NCBI RefSeq assembly: GCF_028657945.1
Contig: NZ_CP059693.1
Location: 2,790,001-2,854,000, forward strand
DNA length: 64,000 nt
Origin: Thalassomonas haliotis
GTDB taxonomy: Bacteria > Pseudomonadota > Gammaproteobacteria > Enterobacterales > Alteromonadaceae
Reading direction: 5' to 3'
Of the stretch, positions 1 through 20,048 are shown in pieces (position 1 is the first letter of the stretch; each line of letters opens with the position of its first letter). Under the pieces are notes generated by a model. The model saw nothing but the letters and a program-made list of their open reading frames with translations, did no database searches and had not been told where the DNA came from. The position numbers were made by a program, and so were the translations under genes.

Positions 1-536
1 CGGATAAAGTGCTTCCAGCCGCCGCCGAGCATAAGGTCGGCTTTGAACTGGCCGTTAACTTTGTTGTCGACATAACTGTCGGCTATTTCATCATAGTTGC
101 GGCGGCTTTCATTATGGCTCAGGTAAGAGGCCGGGGTGGCGTGGTTGATGCGCGAGGTGACAACAACACCGGTTTTTTTACCTTGTTTTTTCGCCCATAC
201 CAGTACGCTTTCCAGCGGTTTTTTGTCAACGTCGACGCCGATGGCGCCGTTATAGGTTTTTGTGCCCGTGGCCAGGGCGGTGGCGCCGGCGGCCGAGTCG
301 GTAACATAACCGGAAACCCGTGCCGGATAGGTGCTGCTCATGCCGACTAAGTGGCGGTCGAATACGGTTTGTTCAACGGCCCGGGTGTCGGGATCATCAT
401 GAAAATAACGATAGGCGCTGGTGTATGCCGGCCCCATGCCGTCGGCGACTATCATGATGACATTTTCCGGGGCGGTTGTTTTGGCATAAGAGACTGAACT
501 TATACAGAGAAAAAGTGTAGATAATACGCGTTTCAT
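1..536 (-). CDS. Alkaline phosphatase (PhoA superfamily), secreted, 3' part beyond window
   Basis: The frame opens at an ATG at 536 and stays open to the window edge, giving the first 178 residues. Residues 1-18 look like a signal peptide (cut after VSYA). The metal-binding stretch IMIVADGMGPAY (about 27-38) is followed by VTDSAAGATALATG with the phosphorylated serine near residue 81, the hallmark of alkaline phosphatases, which release phosphate from phosphomonoesters in the periplasm or outside the cell. It lies 155 bases downstream of the nuclease-fold lipoprotein gene on the same strand, which fits extracellular nucleotide scavenging. The C-terminal metal ligands are not visible, so the subfamily is uncertain. 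Confidence 0.88.
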   Translation of the reverse strand, partial: MKRVLSTLFLCISSVSYAKTTAPENVIMIVADGMGPAYTSAYRYFHDDPDTRAVEQTVFDRHLVGMSSTYPARVSGYVTDSAAGATALATGTKTYNGAIGVDVDKKPLESVLVWAKKQGKKTGVVVTSRINHATPASYLSHNESRRNYDEIADSYVDNKVNGQFKADLMLGGGWKHFI

Positions 537-691
537 ATACTTTCCTGAGGTTATTAAGCGAATATAAGCCGTTATGGCTGTTTGTTATTGTACTGTGCTT
601 GTTTCATTGTTACTTGTAATAAGCACTTGTAATAAGCACTTATAGATTAGCTACTTGTATATTAACGGGCCCTAAGCGGACCCGGTGTTGT

Positions 692-1966
692 TTATTTGTT
701 GGCAGCCGCTGGCAATTCCAGATCAACCCAAACCAGGCGGTGATCCGACGATGCCTGGCGGTCTTTGATCAAACGGTAGGTTTCATCATCTGCCTTGGGC
801 CAGAATACGCCGGAGTCTTTAATTTTCCAGCCGAAAGAAGAAGGCAGCACATAATCGGCGCGCATTCCCCAGTAGGCGGTATGATGTTTGCCGTGGGGAT
901 TGCCTTGGGTATATTCTGCTGCGCCGGCGCTTTCGGGGTGGGGATCTTGCACTTGTTCGCTGCTGAGCAGGGCTTGGATGCCGGAATTGATGGCGTCGCC
1001 TTCGACACTGGAGGCATTTTGATCTCCCATGATCACAAACGGCTCGTGGCTTTGGTATCCGCCTTTAACGGCGTTATCGTCATAGATATAGCCGCCTTTA
1101 CCCGGGGTGATGTAGTCAAGCCAGAAACGGATTTCGTCATGGTTGCGTTTGCCGTTGCGATCTTCCGGGCCGTCAAAGACCGGCGGGGTCGGGTGGCTTG
1201 CCAATACATGTATGGTTTGGCCGTTGACGCTCACCGGTACGTCCCAATGGGATTTGGAAGATAAGCGCATTTGCTGCCAGGCATCAGTATTGTACCAGGG
1301 CTTGCCGGTTTCTGGGTCTACCGGTTGCAGCGCTCCCGGCATATCCTGCCACTTAAAGTGCTGAAAGGTTCTGATCTGCTCATGCGAGATCGGATGTTTG
1401 GATAATAACGCCATGGCAAAATGGCCGGGGAAAAAGCCAAAGCCGTAGGTATCGGCCGGGGATTCGCCGCTTTGACCATTGTTATTTAAATCAAAAGGGG
1501 CGGCTACGCCGGTATTTACCGGTCCCTGGAAAAAGTAAGGGAAGTTTTGCGGTGCTTGCCCCTGCTGGCTTTTGCCCAGGTAGTTTTGTAAAAATGTTTT
1601 CAGGGCCTGGTGCGAGTCATCGCGGCGGTCGAATTCATTGAGCAGGATAATATCCGGGTTGATACGCTGGATAATTTCGGCAATATTGCGGATTTGCTGA
1701 TGATTAGCGGCCAGGGAATGCGCCAGTTCATCACCTTTTACCTGTGGTGCCTGTCCCTTTACGTGAGGCAGATAATTTAATGCTTCCATGCTGACATTAA
1801 AGGTGGCGATACGCACCTTGGTTTTTTGTTTGCTTATGGCGGTTTCTTGGCTCACGGCTGATTGTTTGCTCACGGCTGTTTTTTCGCTCACGGCTGTTGG
1901 CTTATTGATGCTAGTTCCCTCACAGGCAGTTAACAGCATTAAGGGTAACATTAAATAGCGTTTCAT
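692..1966 (-). CDS. Endonuclease/exonuclease/phosphatase-family lipoprotein
   Basis: The 424-residue protein begins with a lipoprotein signal whose lipobox is LLTAC (Cys15), so it should be membrane anchored. A linker of degenerate TAVSxxx repeats (about 24-46) follows. The rest is a DNase I-like EEP domain: IATFNVS at its start, NEFDRRDD, the ASHPTPPVFDGPEDRNG block, FVIMGDQNAS, and a final SSDHRLVW carrying the expected catalytic Asp-His. Such metal-dependent enzymes cut phosphodiester or phosphate bonds; the substrate is not readable from sequence. It follows the TetR gene by 14 bases and precedes the alkaline phosphatase, so nucleic acid or nucleotide cleavage outside the cytoplasm is the inferred role. 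Confidence 0.82.
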   Translation of the reverse strand: MKRYLMLPLMLLTACEGTSINKPTAVSEKTAVSKQSAVSQETAISKQKTKVRIATFNVSMEALNYLPHVKGQAPQVKGDELAHSLAANHQQIRNIAEIIQRINPDIILLNEFDRRDDSHQALKTFLQNYLGKSQQGQAPQNFPYFFQGPVNTGVAAPFDLNNNGQSGESPADTYGFGFFPGHFAMALLSKHPISHEQIRTFQHFKWQDMPGALQPVDPETGKPWYNTDAWQQMRLSSKSHWDVPVSVNGQTIHVLASHPTPPVFDGPEDRNGKRNHDEIRFWLDYITPGKGGYIYDDNAVKGGYQSHEPFVIMGDQNASSVEGDAINSGIQALLSSEQVQDPHPESAGAAEYTQGNPHGKHHTAYWGMRADYVLPSSFGWKIKDSGVFWPKADDETYRLIKDRQASSDHRLVWVDLELPAAANK

Positions 1967-1980
1967 TTTACTTCCTAAAA

Positions 1981-2616
1981 TTAATCGATTAATCCGCAGC
2001 CGCGCAAGATGATGTCGGTAAGAAATTGTGTGACATGGCTAATATCGTCTTCTTCGTAATCGGCGCGGTTCATGATCTGCAGGATCTGGGTTTCAAAGTC
2101 GGCATAGTGCTGGGTGGAAGACCAGATCAGGAAAATCAGGTTAACCGGGTCAACATTTTTCATTTCACCGTTATCTATCCATTGCTGGAACAATTTGGCT
2201 TTTTCCCTGACCCACTGGCGCTGGTAGGTGCGGGTGAACTCTTTTAAGTGTTGTGCCCCCTGGATGATTTCCATGGCGTATATCTTGGAAGCGCCGGGGT
2301 GCTCAAACGAGACTTTTACTTTGGCGGCGATAAACTTCTCAATCGCCACTTTGGGGCCATGCTCGGGATCGATATCGCCAATGGCCTGGTCCCACATATT
2401 CAGGGTTCTTTCCAGTACCGCGTGGTAAATGTTTTCTTTGTTTTTAAAGTAATACAGGATATTGGCTTTGGGCAGGCCGGAGCGGTCGGCAATCGACTGC
2501 ACCGTGGCGCCGCGGTAACCTTGTAAGATAAACTCTTCCTGGGCGGCGGTGATGATTTTCAGCTCACTTTCAGCCCTGATCCTTCCCTGTTTATTAGGCT
2601 TTTTTGTTTCATTCAT
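1981..2616 (-). CDS. TetR-family regulator, RutR-like
   Basis: The 211-residue protein has an N-terminal helix-turn-helix (about residues 18-65, with GATVQSIADRSGLPKANILYYFKNK-like order split as GATVQSIADRSG then LPKANILYYF). Its C-terminal domain shares RutR landmarks, including the ASKIYAMEIIQGA stretch and the IFLIWSSTQHYADF block. E. coli RutR senses uracil or thymine and binds TTGACCA-n2-TGGTCAA. A near match to that palindrome sits 99 bases upstream (2715-2730) over the -35 box, suggesting autoregulation together with the downstream nuclease-fold and phosphatase genes. I infer that it also acts on the matching sites before the receptors and cdd. The ligand is unknown; a nucleobase is likely. 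Confidence 0.85.
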   Translation of the reverse strand: MNETKKPNKQGRIRAESELKIITAAQEEFILQGYRGATVQSIADRSGLPKANILYYFKNKENIYHAVLERTLNMWDQAIGDIDPEHGPKVAIEKFIAAKVKVSFEHPGASKIYAMEIIQGAQHLKEFTRTYQRQWVREKAKLFQQWIDNGEMKNVDPVNLIFLIWSSTQHYADFETQILQIMNRADYEEDDISHVTQFLTDIILRGCGLID

Positions 2617-2714
2617 CAGGTTGATTACTCATGTTGTAAATTTTTGTTTTTATTATGGCTGCTGTGTTTTACCAGCGAAATGTTTCACTGTCACTATCGG
2701 CTATTCTATTTTTA

Positions 2715-2730
2715 TTGACCATCAGGTCAA
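2715..2730. promoter_or_regulatory. RutR-type operator at the TetR operon promoter
   Basis: TTGACCATCAGGTCAA fits the RutR consensus TTGACCA-n2-TGGTCAA apart from one arm base. Read on the minus strand, its TTGACC can act as a -35 box, 16 bases before TAGAAT (2703-2708) as -10, so a bound repressor would block RNA polymerase on the regulator's own operon. Confidence 0.7.
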
Positions 2731-2989
2731 GGCGGCTTTGTTCTTTTATTGTTATTTATGCATTTATACTCGATAAACTTGCATAATTTACTTGATATGG
2801 TTCAAGTATAACAGGGGAAAAGCTCTAGTTTTAATCGAAATAAATTTCAACCTTAGTAAAACAATGGATTTGTTTACTGCCAGATAAAGGTTTTACATTT
2901 TTTTGATTTAGACTATTCACTTGGTTGGTTAATTCATCTATGCATACTTCTTCTTAAAATGGGTCTTTGTGGCTAAATGTAGATATAAG

Positions 2990-3005
2990 CTGACCATATG
3001 GTCAG
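2990..3005. promoter_or_regulatory. RutR-type operator upstream of first Oar-type receptor
   Basis: CTGACCATATGGTCAG is a perfect 16-base palindrome matching the RutR consensus except for the outermost base pair. It lies 363 bases before the receptor ATG and 260 bases beyond the operator of the divergent regulator operon, so it may control either gene. Confidence 0.6.
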
Positions 3006-3367: not shown

Positions 3368-6300
3368 ATGAAACCATATCGTCTTTCGCGTATTACAGGC
3401 GCGTTAGTTATCGCCCTTGGGCTTTCAACATCTGCTATGGCGGCAGAAACCTCGTCGTCGATGCGTGGTAAAATTGTTGGTCCACAAGGTAATGATGCAG
3501 CAAATGTTAAAATCACTGTATTGCACCAACCATCCGGCACAGTAAGTGAATTCATGACCAATGACAGTGGTGTATTCATTGCCAAAGGTTTAAGAGTTGG
3601 TGGTCCGTACACTGTGTATATCGATTCCGATAAGCACCAGGATACTGCATTAGAACAGATTTTCTTAACCTTGGGTGATACCTACCGTTTAAACACTCAA
3701 CTTGAGCCTCAAGTGGAAGTTGAGCGTATTGCCGTAACCGGTCATCGTTTTACGCAAGACGTAGGTGGTTCTAACAGCGTTTTTGGCGCTGATGCTATTA
3801 CCAATACTCCAAGCTTTAACCGCGACGTTAAAGATATTGCCCGTATGAATCCGTTAGTTACCATTAAAGGTGACGGTGAAATGAGTATTGCCGGTGGTAA
3901 CCCGCGTACTAACAGCTTTACCGTAGACGGTATCGGCCAGAGCGATGACTTTGGTGTTGAATTTAGCGGTTATCCAACCGAGCAACCACCGGTTTCATTA
4001 GATGCCCTTGAGCAGATCTCTGTTGATTCTTCTCCGTTTACCGCGAAAAAAGGTAACTTTGGTGGCGGTACCATCAATGCGGTAACCAAGTCTGGTACCA
4101 ATGAATTTAAATTCTCTGGTTTTTTTGAAACCTCGACTCCGAGCATGGCAGGTGATGCCGAGCAAATCGACCAGGTTTTCGAAGTTGTAGAGTATGATGA
4201 TGGTTCAACGAGAACCTTCCCTGTACTTGATGAAAACGGCCACAGAACGTTTGAAAAAAGAAAAATTGAGCCTACTGAAACCGAAAAAAGGTTTGGTTTT
4301 AACGTTGGCGGTCCGGTACTGGAAGATAAGTTATTCTTCTTCGTAAACTATAACAACTGGTCTAAGACCACAGAAATGGATTACGGCTTTAAGGACAGCG
4401 GTGCAACCCACGAATATGAAGTTACCCAAGCCCAATATGACAACTTCACTCGGATTTTAAACGACACTTATGGTCTTCAAGACTCATTAGGTGGCGATCC
4501 GGAAAATACCAGTGAAAGTTTATTGACTAAACTGAGCTGGAACATCAATGATGCTCACCGTGTTGATTTTACTCACCAATGGCAAAATGATGAGTCTGAA
4601 CGTGGCGCGGGTACTGGCGGTAGCACAGTTTCTTTAAACTCTAACCGTTATGACTATATTACCAAGCTCAATAACTTTGCTGCTAAGTTTTATTCTGACT
4701 GGACCGACAATTTTACCACTGAAGTCGGTATCAGCTATAAAGATGTTACTTCAAACAGTAAAACGCGTTCTGATTTCGGTGAAATTTCTGTAGATGCCGA
4801 TAGCGAATCACGTGGTCCTGGCTTTGTCTTTGGTACCGATGTAAAAAGACATGCCAATGCTTCTGAGACACAAACTTTTGTCTTGTCTGTTGATGCTACT
4901 TACCTGTTGGGCGAGCATGAAATTGATTTTGGTGCTCAATATGAACGCTTACGTTTATATAACCTGTTTGCAGAAAACTCTTTAGGTAGCTGGAATTTCG
5001 ATACCATCGATATGTTCGAAGAGCGTAGAATCGGCAGTTATGATTTCTCTTACGCCAATGCCTATACCAATAATTCAGGCGACACCGCTTATGATGCATC
5101 AAGAAAGCAATTTTCACTTTATGTAGAAGATACTTTCTATTTAACTGATGATATTGAAGTGAGTGCCGGTGTACGTTATGAGCGTTTAGCGTCTTCTGAC
5201 AAGCCGACCCTGAATGAAAACTTCAAGGAAACTTACGGTTACGATAACACCGAAAACCTTGATGGTTTAGATATTATCCTGCCTCGCTTAAACCTGACCT
5301 GGTATGCCACCGATGATTTAACGGTACGTGCCGGTGTTGGCCGTTTCCAGGGTGGGGTACCAAATGTTTGGTATAACAACCCGTTCCAGAATGACGGTAT
5401 TACTTTAGTTGCCGCGCAAAATAGCGTGATTAATGATTATTATGCTAACAATACCGTTGATTTCCAGAAAATTCCTGATGAAATTAAAAACTCATTGGTT
5501 GCAGGCGAAGGTAGCGTAACTTATACCGATCCTAACTTTAAGTTGCCATCTAGCTGGCGTGCATCTGTTGGCTTTGACTACACCTTCGATATGCCTTACT
5601 TAGGTGAAGGCTTCAAGTGGACCAACGAATTGATGTACCACAAAAAAGTAGATGAAGCCACTTGGTTGAACACTTCTTTGGTAAAATCTGATGTAGCTGC
5701 CGATGGCGAGCGTATTATCTATGAAAGCAGATATGATAACGATAACTACGATATCATGATGACCAATGCTAAAGAAGATGGCCGTTCCGTTATCTTTAGT
5801 ACCTCTCTTGCAAAAGCCTGGGATAATGGCGTTAACCTGACCATGAGTTATGCCCATCAGGATATTGAAGAAAACCATGTTGGTTCAGCTTCGGTTGCCA
5901 GAAGTAACTACAAGCACAATATCATTAAAAACCGTAACCAGGATATGGCTGCTCGCGGTAGTTATGAAATTGAGCATAGCTTCAAAATTAACTTAGGCTA
6001 TAGCACTGAATTCTTCGAAGGCTATGCTACACGTTTTGATATGTTTTTCGAACGTCGCTCAGGTCGTCCGTATAGCTGGGTAATGGGTATGTTCAGGGAC
6101 GGTGATTTAGGTGACGGTTCTGATTTCTACACGCAATCAGCTTACTTGCCTTATATCCCAACAGGTGCCGATGATCCTAATGTAGACTGGGATGAGTCTG
6201 GTTTAAGCTGGGATGAGTTGGAAGTATTACTTGATCAAGCGGGCATCTCTGCTCGTGGTGAAATCTTAGACCGTAATACCGGCACTCAGCCTTGGGTTAC

Positions 6301-6586
6301 CACTTTAGATATCAGTATCAAGCAGGAAATTCCAGGGTTTGCTGAAGGTCACAAAGGTCAAATTTACTTTATGATCGACAACTTTGCCAACCTGCTTAAC
6401 GACGATTGGGGAATCGATAAAAACATGCGCTACCCTAACCAGGCCATTTATGATTTTGGTGGCTTAGAAGACGGTAAGTATGTGATTGATGCGCGTTATC
6501 AAGGCGCCGATACCCGTAATTACAGTGAAGTTGATGAAAATACTTCCATCTGGCAAGCTAAGGTTGGTATCACCTACAAATTCTAA
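3368..6586 (+). CDS. Oar-type TonB-dependent receptor 1
   Basis: The 1072-residue outer-membrane protein has a signal peptide (1-25), an N-terminal carboxypeptidase-regulatory-like beta domain (about 28-110, including GPQGN and GLRVGGPY), a plug domain (about 130-245, with FTVDGI and INAVTKSGTNEF) and a long beta-barrel ending in phenylalanine (ITYKF), as expected for BAM-assembled proteins. Such Oar/CarboxypepD_reg receptors import large or unusual substrates using TonB energy. It sits between a nuclease/phosphatase operon and nucleoside genes and has a RutR-type operator upstream, so nucleosides or oligonucleotides are the inferred cargo; peptides remain possible. The start follows AAGGAAAA. 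A strong terminator follows at 6631. Confidence 0.9.
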   Translation: MKPYRLSRITGALVIALGLSTSAMAAETSSSMRGKIVGPQGNDAANVKITVLHQPSGTVSEFMTNDSGVFIAKGLRVGGPYTVYIDSDKHQDTALEQIFLTLGDTYRLNTQLEPQVEVERIAVTGHRFTQDVGGSNSVFGADAITNTPSFNRDVKDIARMNPLVTIKGDGEMSIAGGNPRTNSFTVDGIGQSDDFGVEFSGYPTEQPPVSLDALEQISVDSSPFTAKKGNFGGGTINAVTKSGTNEFKFSGFFETSTPSMAGDAEQIDQVFEVVEYDDGSTRTFPVLDENGHRTFEKRKIEPTETEKRFGFNVGGPVLEDKLFFFVNYNNWSKTTEMDYGFKDSGATHEYEVTQAQYDNFTRILNDTYGLQDSLGGDPENTSESLLTKLSWNINDAHRVDFTHQWQNDESERGAGTGGSTVSLNSNRYDYITKLNNFAAKFYSDWTDNFTTEVGISYKDVTSNSKTRSDFGEISVDADSESRGPGFVFGTDVKRHANASETQTFVLSVDATYLLGEHEIDFGAQYERLRLYNLFAENSLGSWNFDTIDMFEERRIGSYDFSYANAYTNNSGDTAYDASRKQFSLYVEDTFYLTDDIEVSAGVRYERLASSDKPTLNENFKETYGYDNTENLDGLDIILPRLNLTWYATDDLTVRAGVGRFQGGVPNVWYNNPFQNDGITLVAAQNSVINDYYANNTVDFQKIPDEIKNSLVAGEGSVTYTDPNFKLPSSWRASVGFDYTFDMPYLGEGFKWTNELMYHKKVDEATWLNTSLVKSDVAADGERIIYESRYDNDNYDIMMTNAKEDGRSVIFSTSLAKAWDNGVNLTMSYAHQDIEENHVGSASVARSNYKHNIIKNRNQDMAARGSYEIEHSFKINLGYSTEFFEGYATRFDMFFERRSGRPYSWVMGMFRDGDLGDGSDFYTQSAYLPYIPTGADDPNVDWDESGLSWDELEVLLDQAGISARGEILDRNTGTQPWVTTLDISIKQEIPGFAEGHKGQIYFMIDNFANLLNDDWGIDKNMRYPNQAIYDFGGLEDGKYVIDARYQGADTRNYSEVDENTSIWQAKVGITYKF

Positions 6587-6752: not shown

Positions 6753-6768
6753 TTGAACACGTGGTCAG
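6753..6768. promoter_or_regulatory. Degenerate RutR-type operator upstream of receptor 2
   Basis: TTGAACACGTGGTCAG differs from the RutR consensus at two fixed positions. It lies 14 bases from a second, different palindrome, so receptor 2 may be under two regulators. Weak match; support comes mainly from its position. Confidence 0.4.
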
Positions 6769-6782: not shown

Positions 6783-6798
6783 TTGACACTTGTGTCAA
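6783..6798. promoter_or_regulatory. TTGACAC-type operator at receptor 2 promoter
   Basis: TTGACACTTGTGTCAA has 7-base perfect inverted arms. Its TTGACA can be a -35 box, with GATAAC 17 bases downstream as -10. The same arm sequence recurs upstream of udk (16584) and between deoB and xdhA (27070), so it is probably the site of a nucleoside-related repressor not identified here. Confidence 0.6.
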
Positions 6799-7105: not shown

Positions 7106-10100
7106 ATGAAAACACATCGTCTCTCTCGTGTTGCCGCCGCGCTTGTACTGGGAATGGGCTTAACCGCCACTGCCCAGGCAAATACGACTTCTTCAGCGAT
7201 CAAAGGTCATATTACCGGGCCACAGGGCAATGCCGCTGCCGGTACTGTGGTTTCAATCACTCACGTGCCATCGGGAACTACCAGACAAGTAACCGTTAAC
7301 GAGGCCGGTATTTTCTCTGCCAAAGGTTTACGTGTTGGCGGACCTTACAGAGTCGTAATTGACTCGGATGCTTATGAAGATCAAGAAGTTAAGGATGTTT
7401 TCCTGCAACTGGGTAAAACCTATGAGTTAGATCGCAGCCTGGAAGTGGAACAAAACATGGAAGTGATCGCGGTAACTGGCCGTATCCTGGATAAAAATGC
7501 CGGCAGCACCAGCCCGGCAAGTAACTTTAATCTCGATGATTTGGTTAATGCGCCCACGGTAAATCGCGATATTAAAGACGTGATCCGAGTTGACCCGCGT
7601 ATTTATATTGACCAAACCAATAACGATGCCATCAACTGTGCCGGCGGTAACCCTAAGTTTAACAGCTTGACGGTTGATGGTACCCGGATGAATGATAACT
7701 TCGGTTTAAACAGTAATGGTTACCCGACGGTTCGTATTCCTTTCTCCTATGATTCAATCGATCAGGTTACGGTTGAACTGGCCCCGTTTGATGTCCAGTA
7801 TGGTGGTTTTACCTCCTGTAACATTAATGCGGTAACGAAATCCGGTACCAATGAAGTTCATGGCGGCTTCTTTTACGATTTTACCAGCGACTCTTTAAAA
7901 GGTGACAGCCTTGAAGGTGATAAGCAAGACGTGGGTGATTACACCGAGAAACGTTATGGCTTCAACCTTGGCCTGCCGTTAATTGAAGACAAGTTATTCT
8001 TTTTTGGTAGTTATGAGAAATTAGACGGTTCACAAATTCTTGATTATATCCCGTTTAATGACAGCCCGCAGCGCATAAGCCAGGAAGAGATCGATCGCAT
8101 CGTACAAATTTCCAAAGATGTTTATGATTACGATCCCGGCTCCATGGAGCCAAGCTTACCGGTTGAAGATGAAAAAATCTTACTGAAACTTGACTGGAAC
8201 ATCAACGATGATCACAGGGCCGTGTTTGTTTATAACTATAACGATGGTTATGAGTGGGGTCAGTCAGATGCCGATCCGGTAGAAATTGCTTTATCTAACC
8301 ATGTTTATGAACGTGGCGCTGAACTGACTTCTTATGTCAGCTCTATCTATTCAAACTGGAGCGATAATTTTTCAACTGAATTTAGAATCGGTTACTTAGA
8401 GATGGACAACCGTCAGATCTCCCGGGATGCCGACAGTGGTTTCAGTGAATTTCGAGTACAGGCGGATGATATCCGTGTTTATATCGGTCCAGATGACTCC
8501 CGTCAGTCAAACAAGTTAAAATACGATACCACCTCATTGAAACTTGCCGGTACCTATTACCTTGACGATCATGAGCTGTATTTTGGTTATGAGCGTGAAG
8601 AATTAGATGTTTTTAACTTGTTTATCCAGCATAGCCAGACAGAAACCCGCTTCAGCTCAGTTGATGATTTTGAAAATGGTTTAGCCTCGCAAATTGAATA
8701 CGGTAATGCCCAATCTCACAACCCTGACGATGCTGCCGGTGAATTCGAATATGCCCTGAACACCCTTTATTTCCAGGATAAGTTTGAACTGTACGATTAT
8801 GATATGACCATTATGGTTGGCGTACGTTATGACTGGTATAAGAGCAGCGATAAGCCAACAGAAAACCCTAACTTTGTTGAAAGATATGGTTATTCCAATT
8901 CACAAAACCTTGACGGCGTTGATTTAATTCAGCCAAGGTTCGGTTTTAACTGGATGGCAAGTGATCAGTTAGAAGTACGTGGCGGCTTTGGTTTATACTC
9001 GGGCGGTAACCCGAACGTATGGATTTCCAACAGTTACTCGAACGATGGCGTACGCAATATTCAAGCCCGTTTGCGTAACGATCGCGATGACACCGGCAGC
9101 AGACCGCCGATTCAAATTACCGGACCTGATGGTATTGCCTATGACGGCAGCGGCCGTGCTGGTTACGATATTCCGGTTGAACTGATTGATGCCGTAACTA
9201 ATGGCTCAGCAGACAGCTCAGTGAATGTTACCGACCCTGACTTTGAAATTCCTTCTGAGTGGAAATACGCCTTAGGCGCCACCTACACCACAGAAGATGA
9301 GTATGTGATCATGGCGGACTTGCTTTATACCGACAAGCAAGACTCGGCTATCATTAAAAACATAGGTAAAGAGTATAAAGAGGAGCTGGCGCCTGACGGA
9401 CGCCCTATTACTACTGGCCGCGATGACTACCTGTTAACGAATGTCAGTGACGGCGGCGATACCACCGTTTTATCACTTTCTGTCAGCAAAACTTATGATA
9501 ACGGCTTTAGCTTTACCGCTTCTTATGCCTACACCGAATCAAACGACGTGCATCCTATGACCAGCTCCGTTGCTTTCACTAATTATCATGATGTTGCGAC
9601 TGCCAGCCCAAATAGCTTGCAAGAAGCTACCTCTAACTATGAGATCCCGCACAGGTTCACCGTTAACTTAAATTATGTGCATGAGTTCTTTGCCGGTTAT
9701 GAAACCACCTTTAGCCTGTTTGGTCAGGCAAACGAAGGGCGTCCATATACCTGGTCGTTTGCAGGCTCTAACAATGGCGGTGGTTTTGACTTTGACTACA
9801 ATGACTTAGATCGCCAGTTATTGTATGTGCCATTAGAAAATGATCCGCTGGTAAATTACGGCGCTGATTTTGATCTGGCAGCATTTAATGACTTTATTGA
9901 ATCAGAAGGTCTCAAACGTGGTGAAATCATGGACCGTAACGAATTAAGCAGTGACTGGTGGGTGAAGTTTGACGTTCGCGTTGAGCAGGAATTTGCCGGT
10001 TTTATGGAAGGTCATAAAGGCAGTGCTTTCTTCGTTATCGAAAATGTCGGTAACCTGATAAATGATGACTGGGGCGTGCTTAAGCAAGGCTCTTACCTGC

Positions 10101-10413: not shown

Positions 10414-10429
10414 TTGACCATATGGTCAA
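10414..10429. promoter_or_regulatory. RutR-type operator for cdd-deoA
   Basis: TTGACCATATGGTCAA is an exact match to the published RutR consensus and a perfect palindrome. It begins five bases after a TATACT -10 box (10404-10409), so the transcription start should fall inside it, and it ends 17 bases before the cdd ATG. Repression of pyrimidine nucleoside breakdown is the natural reading. Confidence 0.8.
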
Positions 10430-10867: not shown

Positions 10868-12190
10868 ATGTTACTCCCCCAAGAAATCATACGTCACAAG
10901 CGTGACGGGCTGGTTTTAGCCCAGGAAGAAATTCAGGCCTTTATCGACGGCCTGGTGAGCGGCAGTTTTACCGATGCCCAGGTAGGCGCCATGGCCATGT
11001 GTATTTATCAGCAGGGTATGACGGTGGATGAAACCGTGGCTTTTACCAACGCCATGAAAAATTCCGGTGATGTCCTTAGCTGGCCCGAGCTTGATGGTCC
11101 GATTGTTGATAAACATTCCACCGGTGGTGTCGGCGATAAGGTCAGCTTTATGCTCTCGGCAATTGTTGCGGCATGCGGCGGTTATGTGCCTATGATTTCG
11201 GGCAGGGGGTTAGGCCATACCGGCGGCACGGTTGATAAGTTGGAAAGTATTGCCGGTTTTAATGTCCAGCCGAGTCTGCGAGCATTTAAAAGCCTGGTGG
11301 CCGAGCACGGCCTGGCGATTATTTCCCAAACCAGCAATTTAGCACCCGCGGATAAACGTTTATACGGCGTACGTGATATTACCGCCACGGTGGACTCAAT
11401 TCCGCTGATTACCGCCTCTATTTTATCGAAGAAACTGTCTGCCGGGCTTGATGCCCTGGTGATGGATATTAAGGTCGGTAACGGCGCTATGATGACAGAT
11501 ATCAAGCAGGCCAATGCACTGGCACAAAGCATTGTTAATGTTGCCACCGGCGCCGGGGTAAAAACCGAGGCCATTATTACCGATATGAACCAGGTACTGG
11601 GTAGTAGCGCGGGTAATGCCTTGGAAATCAAGGAAACCGTGGATTATCTTACCGGGGAATATCGCGAGCCGAGATTACATCAGGTCACGGTATCTCTGGC
11701 TTGTGCCATGCTTCAACATGCCGGACTTGCAGTTGATGAAAGCCAGGCCCGGGCTAAAATCGAGCAGGCATTAAGCTCAGGCAAGGCGGCAGAGAAATTT
11801 GCCGATATGATTGCCGCCATGGGCGGACCGGGTGATTTATTAACCAATCCCTGGGCTTCAATGCCAAAAGCCAATGTGGTGCAGGATATTATCGTTAAAC
11901 AGGACGGTTATATCAACGGCATGCAAACCCGGGATATCGGCATGGCGGTGGTGGCGCTAGGCGGCGGCCGTTTAGCCGGTGATCAGCAAATTGATCACAG
12001 TGTCGGTTTTGATGCCATTACCCCGCTGGGCAGCTACCTTAAAGCCGGTGATGTGATTGCCAGGGTACATGCCAAAGACAGCGACAGCGCTGCGCAGGCG
12101 TCGGCCCGTTATTTAACTGCTTTAGAGATAGGTGAAGGGCTGGCAGAATTGCCGTCTGTGATTTATCACAGCGTGAATGCCGATACTTAG
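10868..12190 (+). CDS. deoA: Thymidine phosphorylase
   Basis: The 440-residue enzyme splits thymidine or deoxyuridine with phosphate to give the base and deoxyribose-1-phosphate. It shows DKHSTGGVGDKVS (about residues 82-94), which binds phosphate, and the family signature SGRGLGHTGGTVDKLESI. Length matches E. coli DeoA. It is translated one base after cdd, so cytidine deamination and cleavage are coupled. Its product feeds deoB and deoC elsewhere in the window. A bidirectional-looking terminator separates it from convergent upp. Confidence 0.96.
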   Translation: MLLPQEIIRHKRDGLVLAQEEIQAFIDGLVSGSFTDAQVGAMAMCIYQQGMTVDETVAFTNAMKNSGDVLSWPELDGPIVDKHSTGGVGDKVSFMLSAIVAACGGYVPMISGRGLGHTGGTVDKLESIAGFNVQPSLRAFKSLVAEHGLAIISQTSNLAPADKRLYGVRDITATVDSIPLITASILSKKLSAGLDALVMDIKVGNGAMMTDIKQANALAQSIVNVATGAGVKTEAIITDMNQVLGSSAGNALEIKETVDYLTGEYREPRLHQVTVSLACAMLQHAGLAVDESQARAKIEQALSSGKAAEKFADMIAAMGGPGDLLTNPWASMPKANVVQDIIVKQDGYINGMQTRDIGMAVVALGGGRLAGDQQIDHSVGFDAITPLGSYLKAGDVIARVHAKDSDSAAQASARYLTALEIGEGLAELPSVIYHSVNADT

Positions 12191-12266: not shown

Positions 12267-12893
12267 CTAAAGCGTACCAAAAATCTTATCGCCGGCATCG
12301 CCAAGGCCAGGCAAGATATAACCCTTGTCATTGAGTTTCTCATCAACGCTGCCGATGTACATGTCTACGTCCGGATGGGCTTTTTCTATCAATTCAATGC
12401 CTTCAGGCGCCGCGACCAAGAACAGGGCTTTAATTTGCTTACAGCCACTTTCTTTGAGCAGATCTATGGTGGCCAGGGCGCTGCCGCCGGTTGCCAGCAT
12501 AGGGTCGATGATCAGCGCCGTTCTTTCACTGATATCGGCGACGATATTCTGATAATAACTTTCCGGCTCCAGGGTTTCTTCGTTGCGGGCAATACCCACT
12601 ATGCTGACGGTGGCGCAGGGTAAAATGGCTTGGGCGCCGTTTAACATGCCTAAACCGGCGCGTAAAATCGGCACTAAGGTCGGTTGCTTGTTGGCCAATA
12701 CCGGTGCGGAAATATTACCGGACCAGCAGGTCATCGGCTGCTGTTTCAGCTCAAGATCTGCGGTGGCTTCCATGGTGAGCATAGTGGATACTTCATTGAC
12801 CAGCTCACGGAATTTTTTCAGTGAAATGGTATCTTCTCTGAGCAGACTGACTTTATGTTTAACCATGGGATGGTTACTGGGATAGACGGCCAT
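12267..12893 (-). CDS. upp: Uracil phosphoribosyltransferase
   Basis: The 208-residue enzyme converts uracil and PRPP to UMP. The PRPP loop is ALIIDPMLATGGSALATIDL (about 126-145), and the uracil-binding segment is YILPGLGDAGDK near the C terminus. Full family length. The start follows AAGGAAA. It is a single gene with its own terminator, so it salvages uracil released by nucleoside breakdown; no uracil permease lies next to it. Confidence 0.96.
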   Translation of the reverse strand: MAVYPSNHPMVKHKVSLLREDTISLKKFRELVNEVSTMLTMEATADLELKQQPMTCWSGNISAPVLANKQPTLVPILRAGLGMLNGAQAILPCATVSIVGIARNEETLEPESYYQNIVADISERTALIIDPMLATGGSALATIDLLKESGCKQIKALFLVAAPEGIELIEKAHPDVDMYIGSVDEKLNDKGYILPGLGDAGDKIFGTL

Positions 12894-12973: not shown

Positions 12974-13552
12974 TTATTGCCAAACGAGCTGTTTAAAGTG
13001 CTCACGGCACAGGGATTCGTATCTTTCATTGCCGCCCACTTCTACCTGGGCGCCTGAGGTGATGGGACGGTTATTTTCATCCAACCGGGTGACAAAGTTA
13101 GCCTTGCGTCCGCAATGGCAAATGGTTTTCAGCTCGACAAGTTTGTCGGCCCAGGCCAGCAGGGCGGCGCTGCCTTCAAAGGTTTCACCGAGAAAGTCGG
13201 TGCGCAGGCCATAGGCAAGCACGGGAATGTGCAATCTATCGACAATATCGGTTAATTGTTTAACCTGTTGTGATGATAAAAACTGGGCTTCGTCAATCAG
13301 GATACAACTGAGTTTTTGTGCCTGGTGCAGTTTCTCTACCTCATCAAAGATATTGCTTTGTTCGCTAAAAACCCGGGCGTCGGCATTGATGCCTAAGCGG
13401 GAAGCAACTTTGCCTTCGGCGAACCTGTCATCGATTTTTGCGGTAAAAATTACCGTATGCATGCCGCGTTCACGGTAGTTATAGGAAGACTGTAATAAAT
13501 GGGTGGACTTACCGGCATTCATTGCGGAGTAATAAAAATACAACTGCGCCAT
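12974..13552 (-). CDS. tdk: Thymidine kinase (type II)
   Basis: The 192-residue enzyme phosphorylates thymidine with ATP. It has the P-loop SAMNAGKST (about 9-17), the DEAQF motif (Asp87-Glu88), the LRTDF segment and a zinc site with Cys145, Cys147 and Cys182. Length matches the cellular type II family. It lies alone between hairpins and balances the catabolic enzymes by salvaging thymidine for DNA synthesis. Confidence 0.95.
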
Positions 13553-13829: not shown

Positions 13830-14600
13830 TTAGTAACCGCTGCTTTGGCCTTTATCTGCCTGGTGGCCTAAGGTCGTTAATAAACTGGCTAATAAGCTGC
13901 TGGCGCCGAACCTGAAGGTTTGGCTTTTGCTCCAGCTTTCACCTAAAATTTCGCTGGCCATATCCAGATAAACCGCGGCATCTTCTGCGCTGCGCACACC
14001 GCCGGCGGCTTTAAAGCCAACCTGTGGGTTGTTTGCTTTAATCACGTTCAGCATAACCTTGGCTGCTTCCGGCGTGGCATTTACCGGCACTTTTCCGGTA
14101 GAGGTTTTAATAAAGTCAGCACCGGCGGCAATTGAAAGTTCGCTGGCTTTTTGGATCAGTGCTTGGGTTTTTAATTCACCGGATTCAATGATCACTTTAA
14201 GCATAATATCGCCACAGGCGGCTTTACAGGCTTTAACCAGTTCAAAACCGATGTCTTCATTACCCCCAATCAGGGCGCGGTAAGGGAAGACCACGTCGAC
14301 TTCATCGGCGCCGTAGGCAACCGCGGCTTTGGTTTCGGCAACGGCAATGTCGATGTCATCATTGCCGTGAGGGAAGTTGGTTACCGTGGCGATTTGAACC
14401 TCAGGCGACCCCTGGGCGGCCAGTGTCTTTTTCGCCAGCGGGATAAAACGCGGGAAAATACAAATAGCAGCGGTATTACCGGCAGGCGATTTGGCCTGGC
14501 GGCACAGCTCGATGATGTCCTGTTCGCTTTCACTATCGGTTAAGCTGGTTAAGTCCATTAAACTCAGCGCGGTTAACGCGTAGTCTTGTAATTTACTCAT
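13830..14600 (-). CDS. deoC: Deoxyribose-phosphate aldolase
   Basis: The 256-residue class I aldolase splits 2-deoxyribose-5-phosphate into acetaldehyde and glyceraldehyde-3-phosphate. The Schiff-base lysine is Lys165 in IKTSTGK, and Asp102 ([11 protein letters not shown]) and Lys197 ([11 protein letters not shown]) match the other catalytic residues of E. coli DeoC. The start follows AAGGAACC. It is the last gene of a udk-nupC-deoC operon, nine bases after nupC, and completes deoxyribose use begun by deoA, deoD and deoB. Confidence 0.96.
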
Positions 14601-14609: not shown

Positions 14610-15857
14610 TTATAAGGTGACGAAAACACCGGCAATGGCCGCGCTCATCAAGTTAGCTAAGGTAGCTGCCAGCATCGCACGCATGCCTAAACGGGCAATA
14701 TCATGTCGTCTGCTAGGGGCCATAGAGCCTAAACCACCCAATAAAATGGCAATAGAAGACAGGTTGGCAAAACCACAAAGGGCAAAGGTCACAATGGTTT
14801 GTGTGTGGTGACTTAAGCTGTCTTTGACTTCAACAAAATTGACGTAGGCGAAAAACTCATTCACGGCAATTTTTTGTCCGATAAAGCTGCCCGCCTGTAG
14901 CATTTCATCGACAGGCACGCCGATAATAAAGGCCAGCGGCGCAAATACGTATCCGAGGATTAATTCTATGGTGATGCCTTCAAAACCGAGTAAACCGCCA
15001 ATGCCGCCGATTAACATGTTCAACAAGGCAATCAGGCCGATAAAGGCTAACAGCATAGCGCCGACATTAACCGCCAGTTTTAATCCTGATGCTGCGCCAC
15101 CGGCTGCGGCATCAATGACATTGGCGGGTTTGTCATCGACATTGTCTTCAAATGCTACCGGACCTTCTTTTAGCTTTTCATGTTCGGTTTCCGGCATGAT
15201 AATTTTGGCCATCAATAAGCCGCCGGGGGCGGCCATAAAAGAGGCGGCGATCAGGTATTTAAGTTCTATGCCCAATCCGGCATAACCGGCCAGGATAGAG
15301 CCGGCAACGGAAGCCAGGCCGCCGACCATGATGGCGAATAATTCTGACTGGGTCATCCTGGCAATATAAGGACGCACGACTAATGGCGCTTCGGTTTGAC
15401 CGACAAAGATATTTGCGGTAGCAGATAAAGACTCGGGCTGGCTGGTTTTTAACAGTTTTTGTAAGCCGCCGCCGATCACCTTGATAACCACCTGCATAAT
15501 GCCTAAATAATAAAGCACAGCAATTAACGAGGAGAAAAAGATAATAATAGGCAGTACCCGTACGGCAAAGACAAAGCCTACGCCATTAGAGTACATGGCA
15601 TCTGTGCCCAGGCCGCCGAATAAAAAGTCGATACCGGCCTTGGCGCTGTCAATGACCTGCTGCACACCGCCGGTAATAGATTCTAAAACATCTTTACCAA
15701 AAGGCACATAAAGCACGAAGGCGCCAAATATCACCTGCAGGGTAAAGGCCAGGCCTACGGTGCGCCAGTTAATCGCTTTACGATGCTGTGATAAGAAAAT
15801 GGCAATGGCCAGTAAAAATACTATGCCAAACAAGCCACGTAATGCCGTTAATTCCAT
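14610..15857 (-). CDS. nupC: Concentrative nucleoside transporter (CNT family)
   Basis: The 415-residue inner-membrane symporter carries nucleosides with H+ or Na+. Landmarks are GQTEAPL (substrate-binding loop) and [15 protein letters not shown], both typical of NupC proteins, within about eight to ten hydrophobic segments. It lies between udk and deoC with short gaps (16 and 9 bases). It provides the inner-membrane step after the outer-membrane receptors nearby. Whether the coupling ion is sodium, as is common in marine species, cannot be read directly. Confidence 0.94.
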
Positions 15858-15873
15858 GAAGACCTCATTGTTA

Positions 15874-16536
15874 TTATTTTGTAAGTTGGCGAATTTTTGC
15901 TTTTAATAATTCTATTGCCATACGGTTTTTGCCACCACGGGTGATGACGATATCTGCGTAAGATTTCGAAGGCTCTATGTGCTGGTAATACATAGGACGT
16001 ACGGTATCTAAATATTGGTTGGTAATTGAGTCTATACTGCGTCCGCGTTCCAAGGTATCACGCTGGATGCGGCGGATAAGACAGATGTCCAGCGGGGTGT
16101 CCATATACATCTTAATATCAAAACTGTTGCGTAACTCTTCATTGCAAAACAACAAAATACCTTCCACTAAGATGATAGGCGTGGAATTTATCTCTATGGT
16201 TTCATCGATGCGGGTATGGGTTTTATAGCAGTAGACAGGGCACTGAACCGTATTGCCCTCGGTAAGCTCTCCGATTTGCCGGCACAATAATTCATGCTCA
16301 AAAGCATTGGGATCATCGTAGTTGGTTTTTTCCCGCTCACCCATAGTCATATGGGATTGATCACGATAATAGGCATCTTCCTTAATAATTGAGATGCCGT
16401 CCGCTCCTAATTCCGGCAATAATTCATCATATATGGTCTGTGCAAAGAGGGTTTTTCCTGAGGCTGAGGCGCCTGCAATTGCTATAACTGTCGGTTTTTT
16501 GTGTTGCACAGAGTTTTTTGCCTTAGTTTGATTCAT
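15874..16536 (-). CDS. udk: Uridine/cytidine kinase
   Basis: The 220-residue enzyme phosphorylates uridine and cytidine. It has the P-loop GASASGKT, the [10 protein letters not shown] segment that binds substrate, and full family length. An upstream ATG at 16599 would add 21 unrelated residues, but it falls inside the operator/-35 region; the -10 box (16570-16575) lies downstream of it, so the ATG at 16536 is preferred although its Shine-Dalgarno is weak. First gene of the udk-nupC-deoC operon. Confidence 0.93.
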
Positions 16537-16569: not shown

Positions 16570-16599
16570 AAGATATTCAAAACCTGACACATGTGTCAA
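16570..16599 (-). promoter_or_regulatory. Promoter and TTGACAC-type operator for udk-nupC-deoC
   Basis: Read on the minus strand, TTGACACATGTGTCAG (16584-16599) is a palindromic operator whose TTGACA is the -35 box; TATCTT (16570-16575) follows after 18 bases. The same spacing and nearly the same spacer occur at the deoB promoter, which supports both. The region is itself loosely palindromic, so weak divergent transcription toward receptor 3 is possible. Confidence 0.72.
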
Positions 16600-16809: not shown

Positions 16810-16825
16810 CTGACCAGTTGGTCAT
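16810..16825. promoter_or_regulatory. RutR-type operator upstream of receptor 3
   Basis: CTGACCAGTTGGTCAT keeps the TGACCA-n2-TGGTCA core of the RutR consensus. It lies 92 bases before the ATG of the third Oar-type receptor, a position suited to repression. Confidence 0.65.
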
Positions 16826-16916: not shown

Positions 16917-19900
16917 ATGAGTAAAATAATTGCGGTTATGTTGATGTTTACGGCATTAACAATTCAGAATCCTGTCTTGGCTTCTGATACTTCATCGGCA
17001 ATTCGGGGGCTTGTTGTCGATGCTGGCGGTGTCAATCAGGCGAATGTCACCGTACAAATCATACATGGCCCCACCGGCACGACAAAAACAGTAACCACTA
17101 CGGAAGGCGGGGTTTTTCAGGCCAGAGGGCTAACCATAGGCGGACCTTATACGGTAAAAGTAACCGGGGGCAGTTCATTGACTTTTGAGGAAGTTGACGA
17201 TCTTGTGCTGCAATTGGGCCAAACGTCTAAAGTGGTGCTTAATGAAAAGCAAGCACAGGAAATCGAGCGTATTCAGGTAACCGGTCAGCTGGCAATGGCC
17301 GGTACCTACAGAAAAGGCCCGAGTGAAGAATTTTCAGAGCAGGAAATTGCCAATACTGCCGCCATTAGCCGGGATCTTAAGTCTGTGCTGAAAAGCGACT
17401 CGCGCATGGTGGTGGATACCACCGCCGATGGCGGGCCGGCACTTTCCATTGCCGGGGGCAGCGTCCGCGGCAACAGCCTGACGGTAGACGGGGTTAAGCA
17501 AAATGATGATTTCGGTCTTAATAAAAATGGTTATCCCGGGCGCAGAACGCCGATATCTCTTGATGCCATAGAACAACTGGCGGTGAATGTTGCGCCGTTT
17601 GAAGTCACTTATGGGGATTTCCAGGGGGGCAATGTTAACATCGTGACCAAATCCGGCAGCAATGAATTTCACGGCTCTGCCTTTTTCTTCCGCTCTGATG
17701 AAGGCCTGGCAGGGGAGGAAAACAAAGGAGAAGACCTAAGTATCGGTGATTTTGAAGAAGATACTTACGGGTTTACCCTCGGCGGACCGGTCGTAGAAGA
17801 TACGCTGTTTTTCTTTATCTCCTATGAAAAGTTCGATGCCACCAAACCTTATCAGTTTACCCTGGACAATGAAAATGGCGTAGCAGAAGCCAATGAAAAA
17901 ATGGGCGTGACCCAGGCGGATTTTGATCTTATCTCGCAAATTGCCCAAGATACCTGGAGTTATAATATCGGCGAATATGATACCACCTCGGATGAAGAGG
18001 ATGAAAAGCTCCTGGTAAAATTTGACTGGTATATTTCGGATGATCACCGGGCATCCTTGACTTACCAGGACAATGAAGGCAATACGGTGCGGGATTATTG
18101 GGCGGAAACCTTTCCGAATGCCACTTGGGCTACGGCTGAATCCAACCGTTATAATATGAATGAAACCTTAAAAGCCTATAGCTTACAGGTTTTTTCCGAC
18201 TGGACCGAAGATTTCTCCAGTGAATTTAAATTTGCCCGCAAAGAAGTTGAAACCGAGCAGGTGCCGCTATTAGGCGCCAACTTCGGCCAGTTTTTAATTC
18301 ATACCGGTAACGGCGGGTCTTTATATATAGGGCCGGATCAGTTCCGCCATGCCAATGCCTTAACCAATGACAGGGATATGTTCAAGTTCAAAGGGGATTA
18401 TTACCTTACCGACGAGCACCTGATCACTTTCGGGGTTGAGCATGAGATCCTGAAAATTGAAAATACCTTTGTTTTTGGTTCTTTAGGCATGACCGAATTT
18501 GCCAGCATCCAGGACTTTCAAGACAACAATGGTTTTCATGTTTTTCAAAGCTCAGTTACCGGTGATGTCAATGACGCGATAGATAAATTTGAATACAGCA
18601 CTACTACCTATTACTTGCAGGATGAATGGTCGGTTACCGATGATATTACCTTAACTTATGGTTTTCGTTTTACCAAATATGATAATGATGATAAGCCGGT
18701 ATTTAACCAAAACTTTTTTGACCGTCACGGGTACAGCAATCAAGAAAACTATGATGGCTTGGATTTATTTGAACCCAGGCTTGGGATTAACTGGACCTAT
18801 GACGATGAGACAGTGATCCGCGGCGGTATCGGTTTGTTTGGCGGTGGCGCCCCTAATGTCTGGTTATCTAATTCTTACGGTAATGACGGAGTCAGGAAAA
18901 CCTTTGCCGGCTGTTTCGGTCCTTGTTTTGATGGTAAAACCATGCCACAGGAAATCAAAGATTCGTTAGCGGCAGGTGGCTTTAGCGGAGGGGACAGCGA
19001 TACCAATAGCATAGATCCCGATTTTGAGATCCCCAGCACCTGGAAATTGAATTTCGGTATAGAAAGACGGCAGGATTTAGGCTTTCTCGGTGAGGCCTGG
19101 CTGCTGACTGCGGATGTGATTTTCAGCAAAGTGAAAGATGCGGCCATTTACACTGAGCTTAATATGGCGCAAGCAGATACCGCACCCGATGGCCGGCCTA
19201 TTTATGATTCACCGGCACCTTTTGATCTGAGCTTAACCAATACTGACGAAGGGGAAGGGCAAGTTTGGACATTCGCGGCTGAGAAAAACTTCTATACCGA
19301 TCATGGTACCTATAACTTTGGCATAGGTTATACCTATCAGGATATTACTGAAATTAATCCCGGTAACGCCTTCGTTGCTTTTGAGGGCTATTCCATGCCT
19401 GCCAATGATGACTTCCAGGCAGAAAATGAATATAACTCGGAATACGAGGTACCCCACAGGCTGACAATCAATTTCAGCTGGAGTGATGAGATTTTTGGTA
19501 ATAACCTGACGACAGTTGCTTTGTCTTTCACTGCCCGGGAAGGACGCCATTATAGCCATACCATGAGGTCGAGCGGTACTTTTGGTGGTTTTGCCGACTT
19601 TGCCACTTGGGACGGCTATAACTCACAATTGTTATATGTACCTGAGGGCGTCGACGATCCCCTGGTTACTTATGCCGACGGCTTTGACAGCGATGCCTTT
19701 TTTGCCTATATCGACGGTAATGATTGTTTAAGCCGGGGCAAGATATCAAGAAGGCACTCCTGTTCCAGCCGCTGGATTCAGCGTTTGGACATGCACCTGA
19801 TGCAGGAAATTCGTATCAGTGGTGAGCATAAGCTGGAATTAAGCCTGGACATTGAAAACCTGGGTAATCTAATTAACGACGATTGGGGCAGGGCGGAGTC

Positions 19901-20048
19901 TTTTGTACAGCCGTTTAATGCGCCGGTAGTGGATGTTGCGATTGAAAATGGCCAATATGTCTATAGCAATTTTACTGAGCCGACGCCTACTTTAGCGAAA
20001 ATTCCTTCCGTATGGAAAGCCCAGCTGGGTATACGTTATCGCTTTTAA
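16917..20048 (+). CDS. Oar-type TonB-dependent receptor 3
   Basis: The 1043-residue receptor has a signal peptide ending at Ala22, a carboxypeptidase-regulatory-like domain (about 25-105, with GLTIGGPYTV), a plug (about 120-240, with SLTVDGVKQNDDFG and NIVTKSGSNEFHG) and a barrel ending IRYRF. The ATG at 16917 is preferred over an upstream TTG because GGGAGG stands seven bases before it. Loop cysteines (CFGPC and a DC...HSC pair late in the barrel) may form disulfides outside the cell. Nearby operator and neighbours suggest nucleoside or oligonucleotide uptake, as for receptors 1 and 2. Confidence 0.9.
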   Translation: MSKIIAVMLMFTALTIQNPVLASDTSSAIRGLVVDAGGVNQANVTVQIIHGPTGTTKTVTTTEGGVFQARGLTIGGPYTVKVTGGSSLTFEEVDDLVLQLGQTSKVVLNEKQAQEIERIQVTGQLAMAGTYRKGPSEEFSEQEIANTAAISRDLKSVLKSDSRMVVDTTADGGPALSIAGGSVRGNSLTVDGVKQNDDFGLNKNGYPGRRTPISLDAIEQLAVNVAPFEVTYGDFQGGNVNIVTKSGSNEFHGSAFFFRSDEGLAGEENKGEDLSIGDFEEDTYGFTLGGPVVEDTLFFFISYEKFDATKPYQFTLDNENGVAEANEKMGVTQADFDLISQIAQDTWSYNIGEYDTTSDEEDEKLLVKFDWYISDDHRASLTYQDNEGNTVRDYWAETFPNATWATAESNRYNMNETLKAYSLQVFSDWTEDFSSEFKFARKEVETEQVPLLGANFGQFLIHTGNGGSLYIGPDQFRHANALTNDRDMFKFKGDYYLTDEHLITFGVEHEILKIENTFVFGSLGMTEFASIQDFQDNNGFHVFQSSVTGDVNDAIDKFEYSTTTYYLQDEWSVTDDITLTYGFRFTKYDNDDKPVFNQNFFDRHGYSNQENYDGLDLFEPRLGINWTYDDETVIRGGIGLFGGGAPNVWLSNSYGNDGVRKTFAGCFGPCFDGKTMPQEIKDSLAAGGFSGGDSDTNSIDPDFEIPSTWKLNFGIERRQDLGFLGEAWLLTADVIFSKVKDAAIYTELNMAQADTAPDGRPIYDSPAPFDLSLTNTDEGEGQVWTFAAEKNFYTDHGTYNFGIGYTYQDITEINPGNAFVAFEGYSMPANDDFQAENEYNSEYEVPHRLTINFSWSDEIFGNNLTTVALSFTAREGRHYSHTMRSSGTFGGFADFATWDGYNSQLLYVPEGVDDPLVTYADGFDSDAFFAYIDGNDCLSRGKISRRHSCSSRWIQRLDMHLMQEIRISGEHKLELSLDIENLGNLINDDWGRAESFVQPFNAPVVDVAIENGQYVYSNFTEPTPTLAKIPSVWKAQLGIRYRF

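Follow-up and report, generated by a model that had tools for sequence, protein, structure and literature searches.

A proposed nucleic-acid utilisation locus in Thalassomonas: RutR-type operators join Oar-type receptors, nucleases and nucleoside genes

The 64 kb stretch of DNA analysed here, hereafter the window (positions 2790001-2854000 of a 6.45 Mb single-contig genome of the genus Thalassomonas), carries a gene for a TetR-family regulator, TetR1, within a run of hydrolase, receptor and nucleoside genes, together with palindromic sites that are predicted to be its operators. At the start of the first 27 kb an alkaline phosphatase gene (phoA-like; 1..536, reverse strand; PF00245, E 3.5e-49; signal peptide by eye), truncated at the window edge, is followed by a putative envelope nuclease of the EEP family (692..1966, reverse; PF03372, E 3.4e-34) and by tetR1 (1981..2616, reverse). 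The nuclease has a lipoprotein-like signal (LTAC, by eye) and matches ExeM/NucH weakly, below cut-off. Three TonB-dependent receptors (TBDRs) of the Oar type are encoded on the forward strand, namely TBDR1 (3368..6586; PF13620, PF25183, PF00593), TBDR2 (7106..10234; PF13620, PF25183) and TBDR3 (16917..20048, likely ATG start at 16917; PF13620, PF25183, Plug). The CarboxypepD_reg and OMP_b-brl_4 domains are above cut-off in all three; the Plug domain is above cut-off in TBDR3 only, just below it in TBDR1 and not reported in TBDR2. The nucleoside genes comprise cdd (cytidine deaminase; 10447..10866, forward; TIGR01354 above cut-off) and deoA (thymidine phosphorylase; 10868..12190, forward; TIGR02643, 612 bits, cut-off 571) and, on the reverse strand, upp (uracil phosphoribosyltransferase; 12267..12893; TIGR01091 above cut-off), tdk (thymidine kinase; 12974..13552; NF003300 above cut-off), deoC (deoxyribose-phosphate aldolase; 13830..14600; TIGR00126 above cut-off), nupC (concentrative nucleoside transporter; 14610..15857; TIGR00804, 474.7 bits, cut-off 442), udk (uridine kinase; 15874..16536, likely ATG start at 16536; TIGR00235, 252.6 bits, cut-off 220.3), deoD (purine-nucleoside phosphorylase; 20335..21039; TIGR00107 above cut-off) and deoB (phosphopentomutase; 25705..26913; TIGR01696 above cut-off). 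The same 27 kb hold aroG and a receptor of another, siderophore type (TBDR4; 23253-25490), which adjoins deoB. An earlier note, made from the letters of this DNA, had called the phosphatase, nuclease, TetR, receptors, cdd and deoA correctly, as the profile matches confirm.

That note had also pointed to five sites of the form TTGACCA-n2-TGGTCAA, and all five are present. Scored against the 16-mer, they have one mismatch at 2715..2730, two at 2990..3005, two at 6753..6768, none at 10414..10429 (a perfect TTGACCATATGGTCAA) and two at 16810..16825, and they are the sole matches with two or fewer mismatches in the window. When three mismatches were permitted the window gave 15 matches, against a shuffle mean of 2.75 (standard deviation 1.58, largest 6; 100 shuffles). 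The 14-base core, TGACCANNTGGTCA, is exact at 2990, 10414 and 16810 and has one mismatch at 2715 and 6753; of the four exact copies that the genome (6.45 Mb) holds, three fall within the first 20 kb of the window. The predicted operators lie approximately 106 bp upstream of tetR1 (2715), between tetR1 and TBDR1 (2990), upstream of TBDR2 (6753, the weaker of the TGACCA type), directly upstream of cdd (10414) and between udk and TBDR3 (16810). The last of these faces the udk-nupC-deoC genes as well as TBDR3, which extends the earlier note. The site at 6753, 30 bases from an exact operator of a second type, is also present in G013 and G061 and is not listed in G095. The 2715 site overlaps the -35 element of a promoter-like match; such overlap would fit repression, although promoter-like matches occur in chance-level numbers. 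An Rfam scan for RNA elements gave no family at gathering score.

TetR1 orthologues (at least 61% identity) were found in 32 of 98 family genomes, that of G061, in the same genus, encoding a regulator 99% identical to TetR1 of the window. Thirty one regions were compared, being 30 relatives and the window, with G080 excluded (4 kb contig). The gene order phosphatase-nuclease-tetR1-receptor-cdd-deoA, often continued by upp-tdk-deoC-nupC-udk, is widely conserved, although some genomes have lost members of it, and phosphatase and nuclease adjoin tetR1 in 29 of the 31. The earlier note had named conservation of the sites in relatives beforehand as a test of refutation, and conserved they are: the regions (1.14 Mb) contain 41 exact cores, 39 of them intergenic, while 179 permuted half-site palindromes gave a mean of 0.16 exact matches (largest 10, this being the second operator described below). 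Fifteen of the 41 lie upstream of udk, and a core site with at most one mismatch precedes cdd in 21 of the 25 cdd-bearing regions (exact in 15). Training on 34 sites that precede cdd, udk, deoB or deoD, with the 3 other genus genomes left out, gave a matrix that finds a site in the tetR1-receptor gap in 30/31 regions at p<=0.05 and in 28/31 at p<=0.01. Control stretches upstream of other genes, which are partly coding, gave 1/29 for phoA, 3/20 for tdk, 1/14 for deoD and 0/11 for TBDR4 at p<=0.05. Because same-genus regions are near copies of one another, these counts are not all independent. A stricter site table was less favourable (at most one mismatch: tetR1 10/68, TBDR1 6/31, TBDR2 5/33, deoA 1/51); it was set aside, because a 180-residue minimum had excluded cdd and strict matches alone were counted, no farther than 400 bp from a called start. 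The mismatch counts against shuffles, the permuted palindromes and the matrix test together rule out a chance motif. Through shared operators and synteny, then, the sites do join hydrolases, receptors and nucleoside enzymes, as had been proposed. TBDR4, with no matrix match upstream in 11/11, was rejected as a regulon member; its relatives adjoin deoB in many regions.

The regulator itself passes the profile for the YcdC/RutR C-terminal domain (PF08362, 151.1 bits, cut-off 25) and TetR_N (46.2, cut-off 24), and among proteins of solved structure it matches E. coli RutR entries best. It falls below both RutR equivalog cut-offs (TIGR03613, 154.4 versus 368; NF011584, 141.4 versus 230), so that RutR proper is ruled out and TetR1 is a RutR-family paralogue. 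The RutR-type regulator of the earlier note therefore holds for the family and for the type of operator, not for RutR as such. None of rutABCDEFG was recognised by eye among the translated genes of the window, to which the search for rut genes was confined. Relatives of TetR1 on plasmids (413 records) are all below 60% identity. In RutR, according to PMC10891134, W77, W167 and Q171 contact uracil, as do Y97 by way of water and Q179 from the partner chain; a model described there has K52 in contact with a base. Across 82 TetR1 orthologues, K52, K62, W77, Q171 and Q179 are present in 82/82 and W167 in 80/82; this set was used in place of one of 101 rows, which involved a Q171-containing selection motif and duplicates. 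TetR1 of the window keeps the DNA-contact lysine and four of the five uracil contacts. The ligand would thus be base-like, with the pocket not specifying which base.

The receptors can be followed beyond TetR1. Matches to the TBDR2 family occur in 88 of the 98 genomes, comprising all 32 TetR1-positive and 56 TetR1-negative ones, which rules out a receptor family bound to TetR1 alone; in the window's own genome, matches to TBDR2 at E<=1e-10 are confined to the three receptors of the locus. In a tree (quick method, midpoint root, some long branches) the TBDR2 clade mixes TetR1-positive and TetR1-negative loci. Twenty eight of the 56 TetR1-negative loci were examined, 20 mostly from the best scores and 8 lower-scoring; genomes of similar score were skipped (G090, G072, G028, G026, G058, G015, G017, G023, G075), and G024 and G037 were picked with prior knowledge of a nearby exact site. 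In 25 of the 28, udk and nupC are adjacent to the receptor or within three genes of it. In the remaining three an S1/P1 nuclease gene lies beside the receptor, in one case with a 5'-nucleotidase-like gene three genes beyond. Because TetR1-negative receptors also adjoin udk-nupC or an S1/P1 nuclease, their link to nucleic acids is independent of the motif, and this linkage is the strongest evidence for the proposed role of the receptors in nucleic-acid use. Moreover, 7 of the 12 genomes among these 28 that have a K52/L56 regulator carry a TGACCA-type site with no more than one mismatch at the locus, against 0 of the 16 without such a regulator. For the first 20 loci the figures are 6/9 and 0/11 (p=0.002; p=0.011 without G024 and G037).

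Further genes were observed at these TetR1-negative loci. A pair of genes encoding approximately 290 and 320 amino acids lies between udk and the receptor (L239:6357-8163), with similar pairs in many others; the first product matches the phosphonate-type periplasmic binding protein family PF12974, the second has no Pfam match, and the two are possibly a sensor pair. A 2OG-Fe(II) oxygenase gene (Pfam) follows nupC at L239:3460-4299 and could act on a nucleobase, and genes of about 279 amino acids with a like N-terminus follow nupC in other such loci.

A second palindrome, TGACACNNGTGTCA, was the best of the permuted set in the 31 regions, with 10 exact matches, all intergenic. In the window, predicted operators of this type occur upstream of TBDR2 (TTGACACTTGTGTCAA, 6783..6798), upstream of udk and TBDR3 (CTGACACATGTGTCAA, 16584..16599) and, with one mismatch, between deoB and xdhA (27070..27085); the first two are present in 4/4 genus genomes. 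The 16584 site overlaps a -35-like TTGACA, a kind of match found at chance level. In relatives TGACACNNGTGTCA stands upstream of xdhA (exact), in the deoD-tetR2 gap and upstream of a class-V aminotransferase gene, and it was counted in 31 of 98 genomes. Some of these counts belong elsewhere, since the form TGACACCGGTGTCA repeats 3 to 5 times in G017, G018, G045, G063 and G064, all without a listed TetR2 paralogue, suggesting that an unrelated regulator has a similar operator. The 18 kb that follow the first 27 kb of the window encode purine breakdown (xdhAB, allB, allantoicase, UraD-like, ureidoglycolate lyase, guanine deaminase and adenosine deaminase) as well as another regulator of the RutR family, TetR2 (42416..43042, forward), which adjoins adenosine deaminase and has R52/H56 in its recognition helix. 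Neither this regulator nor the second palindrome at 6783 and 16584 was in the earlier note. A transposase-like gene (by eye; 38968-39729) lies within the purine run between a PuuD-like gene and glcB; PuuD-like, xdhC, glcB and transposase are our own names, given from sequence.

Recognition helix and operator vary together among the paralogues, 46 of whose 49 strong-scoring loci were surveyed, the 3 other genus genomes being left out. The 26 K52/L56 rows have eight TGACCA sites and no TGACAC site, whereas the 18 R52/H56 rows have six TGACAC and one TGACCA, the latter upstream of cdd in a TetR1-positive genome (p=0.0014; 0.0003 without that site). At most of the 46 loci neither type has an exact site; a TGACCG site goes with one K52/H56 paralogue, and all 46 rows, purine-side and others, keep Y97. 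TetR1 of G029 and G073 combines K52 with H56 and still goes with exact TGACCA sites, which indicates residue 52. TetR2 is probably the reader of TGACACNNGTGTCA and would control purine breakdown. The earlier note had proposed a single regulator for the whole locus; the TGACCA sites do unite it, but control is likely to involve a pair of regulators, each with its own type of operator, and the 6753 site itself lies near one of the second type.

Sites were also found away from the locus. The fourth exact core of the genome lies upstream of a gene for a dCache chemoreceptor, and 4/4 genus genomes have it. Twelve one-mismatch cores are listed outside the window, of which one intergenic copy is 382 bp upstream of a polA-like gene and another, at 826562, is 223 bp upstream of a gene for a secreted Endonuclease I + LTD + EEP protein. 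A weaker second match lies 156 bp from the latter, and both are kept in the 3 other genus genomes; this is supportive rather than decisive, because the stretch is 87-92% identical among them. In G007 a TGACCA-type site precedes a gene for a secreted Endonuclease I + LTD protein, and others precede a second deoA-deoB (L138) and a dihydropyrimidine dehydrogenase-like gene (L142). Exact cores per genome average 2.31 in the 32 TetR1-positive genomes, 1.21 in 24 with a paralogue only and 0.60 in 42 with neither, the reversed-pattern control giving totals of 10, 8 and 18 for the same groups. As observations in their own right, the gene for glucose-6-phosphate isomerase (pgi, by Pfam) is preceded by a TGACAC site in the four genus genomes (L299, L300, L310, L312); in another genus, three genomes (L136, L137, L140) have a TGACCA site at pgi. 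In three genomes (L126, L153, L313) exact TGACCA cores accompany an ABC-exporter gene that diverges from the gene of another TetR, perhaps as the operator of that neighbouring TetR.

Taken together, we think it likely that bacteria of the Thalassomonas/Colwellia type have here a locus for nucleic-acid utilisation, controlled by TetR1, whose receptors would import nucleic-acid fragments. This reading is directly based on the sites, their conservation, the covariation of regulator and operator and the gene linkage, and from these we infer binding, ligand and transport. TetR1 would repress by binding TTGACCANNTGGTCAA sites at its own promoter, at the Oar-type receptors, at cdd-deoA and at udk-nupC-deoC, and within the genus it probably also acts at the genes for the giant secreted nuclease and the chemoreceptor. 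Judging from the conserved pocket, a pyrimidine base or similar breakdown product may release it. Secreted nucleases would cut DNA or RNA outside the cell, the Oar-type receptors would bring in the fragments, and the envelope nuclease and phosphatase would turn these into nucleosides for import by NupC and processing by Cdd, DeoA, DeoC, DeoB, DeoD, Udk, Tdk and Upp. TetR2 would respond on the purine side, adding a second input at TBDR2 and at udk/TBDR3. Free nucleosides usually pass the outer membrane via porins or Tsx, so nucleosides, with which the earlier note had linked the receptors, are unlikely as the receptor substrate, and oligonucleotides or nucleotides are the more probable one.

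Several observations weigh against this explanation. Between tetR1 and the receptor many of the sites are degenerate: 15/31 regions have one with no more than a single core mismatch and only 7/31 an exact core, the latter figure slightly lowering our confidence in the whole; G071 fails the matrix test there (p=0.095). Promoter matches near the operators are at chance level. Y97 is replaced in 81 of the 82 TetR1 orthologues (F in 73, I in 7, M in 1; Y in 1), and since Y97 and most of the remaining uracil contacts are retained in purine-linked paralogues, the pocket singles out no pyrimidine signal. No PDB sequence match to TBDR2 was found. Away from the locus, 10 of the 12 one-mismatch cores are inside reading frames, one exact core is within a gene (L141), and exact sites precede genes with no obvious link to nucleic acids (pgi, the ABC exporter and an alginate lyase-like gene). 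The 42 genomes with neither TetR1 nor a listed paralogue hold 25 exact cores against 18 in the control, and a lone off-locus site consequently means little.

Other explanations accept part of this evidence. Myxococcus Oar has been reported as needed for secretion of the protease PopC, and the regulon could be real with its receptors exporting or anchoring the nuclease and phosphatase instead of importing fragments. An EEP nuclease gene adjoins the receptor in 10/20 TetR1-negative loci and an S1/P1 nuclease gene in 3/28, as export would have it, but the most constant neighbours, in 25/28, are a cytoplasmic kinase (udk) and an inner-membrane importer (nupC), which fits uptake, and the nuclease and phosphatase of the window bear signal sequences that look ordinary by eye. 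We regard export as unlikely. Phosphate scavenging or plain nucleoside salvage, with receptors for phosphorus-rich or metal ligands, is somewhat less likely again: it would account for the alkaline phosphatase in the tetR1 gene run (29/31 regions) and for siderophore-type TBDR4 by deoB in the window, but not for RutR-type operators or the catabolic enzymes, and TBDR4 has such an operator in 0/11, evidence against it that is indirect in that it comes from operators, enzymes and TBDR4 rather than from a search for Pho boxes. It is very improbable that the TGACCA sites are read mainly by TetR2 rather than TetR1. In favour of it, the window encodes both regulators, and TGACCA sites upstream of xdhA accompany those relatives of TetR2 that have K52/L56; TetR2 itself, however, is of the R52/H56 class that goes with TGACAC sites, and G030, G074 and G012, TetR1-positive with no listed strong paralogue, keep TGACCA sites. 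The import of fragments under TetR1 is the explanation we prefer.

RutR-family control and a logic like that of polysaccharide utilisation loci are already known. In the latter (SusCD) a secreted hydrolase, a TonB-dependent importer, an inner transporter and catabolism stand together; the present locus differs in that its substrate would be nucleic acid rather than glycan, its receptors are of the Oar type and no SusD is among the annotated genes. Shewanella reportedly grows on DNA with extracellular nucleases, nucleotidases and nucleoside catabolism (Pinchuk 2008, cited in PMC8289736 and PMC6555301), and the locus would resemble that system in these respects, with DNA as nutrient. The E. coli RutR regulon (rut operon, carAB) shares with TetR1 the protein family, the DNA-contact lysine and four of the five uracil contacts, as well as a palindromic operator of the same type. 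It differs from TetR1, which is below the equivalog cut-off and is predicted to act on receptor, nuclease and nucleoside genes. RutR regulons with lineage-specific motif changes have been predicted in 68 Proteobacteria genomes (Leyn 2016, PMC5343134); passages of that paper on RutR name no receptor or nuclease among them, overlap being possible via its supplementary lists and RegPrecise. The same source describes a HypR regulon in Alteromonadales that places predicted (secreted) collagenases, a TonB-dependent transporter and catabolic genes under one regulator (PMC5343134), the same logic as here with proline/hydroxyproline as substrate and another regulator. PA1504, an untested RutR-type TetR, lies near purine genes of Pseudomonas aeruginosa (PMC12694930). 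A literature search, with subscription papers and RegPrecise outside its scope, gave no report of Oar-type or TonB-dependent receptors for nucleic acids or nucleosides under a RutR-type regulator.

To our knowledge the outer-membrane route for nucleic-acid pieces in Gram-negative bacteria is largely unassigned, and this locus offers named receptor genes, a regulator and operators that are open to knockout testing. Extracellular DNA and RNA are important marine sources of phosphorus, nitrogen and carbon (PMC8289736). A broader claim, which we judge to be evenly balanced, is that this family of Oar-type receptors, widespread in the marine bacteria of this taxonomic family, would be the outer-membrane gate for nucleic-acid fragments (oligonucleotides or nucleotides), and that in Thalassomonas two RutR paralogues would have split in specificity by a change from K52 to R, with pyrimidine and purine signals meeting at the receptor promoters. 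The K52 and R52 paralogues with their two operators would exemplify a change of DNA target in the TetR family after duplication.

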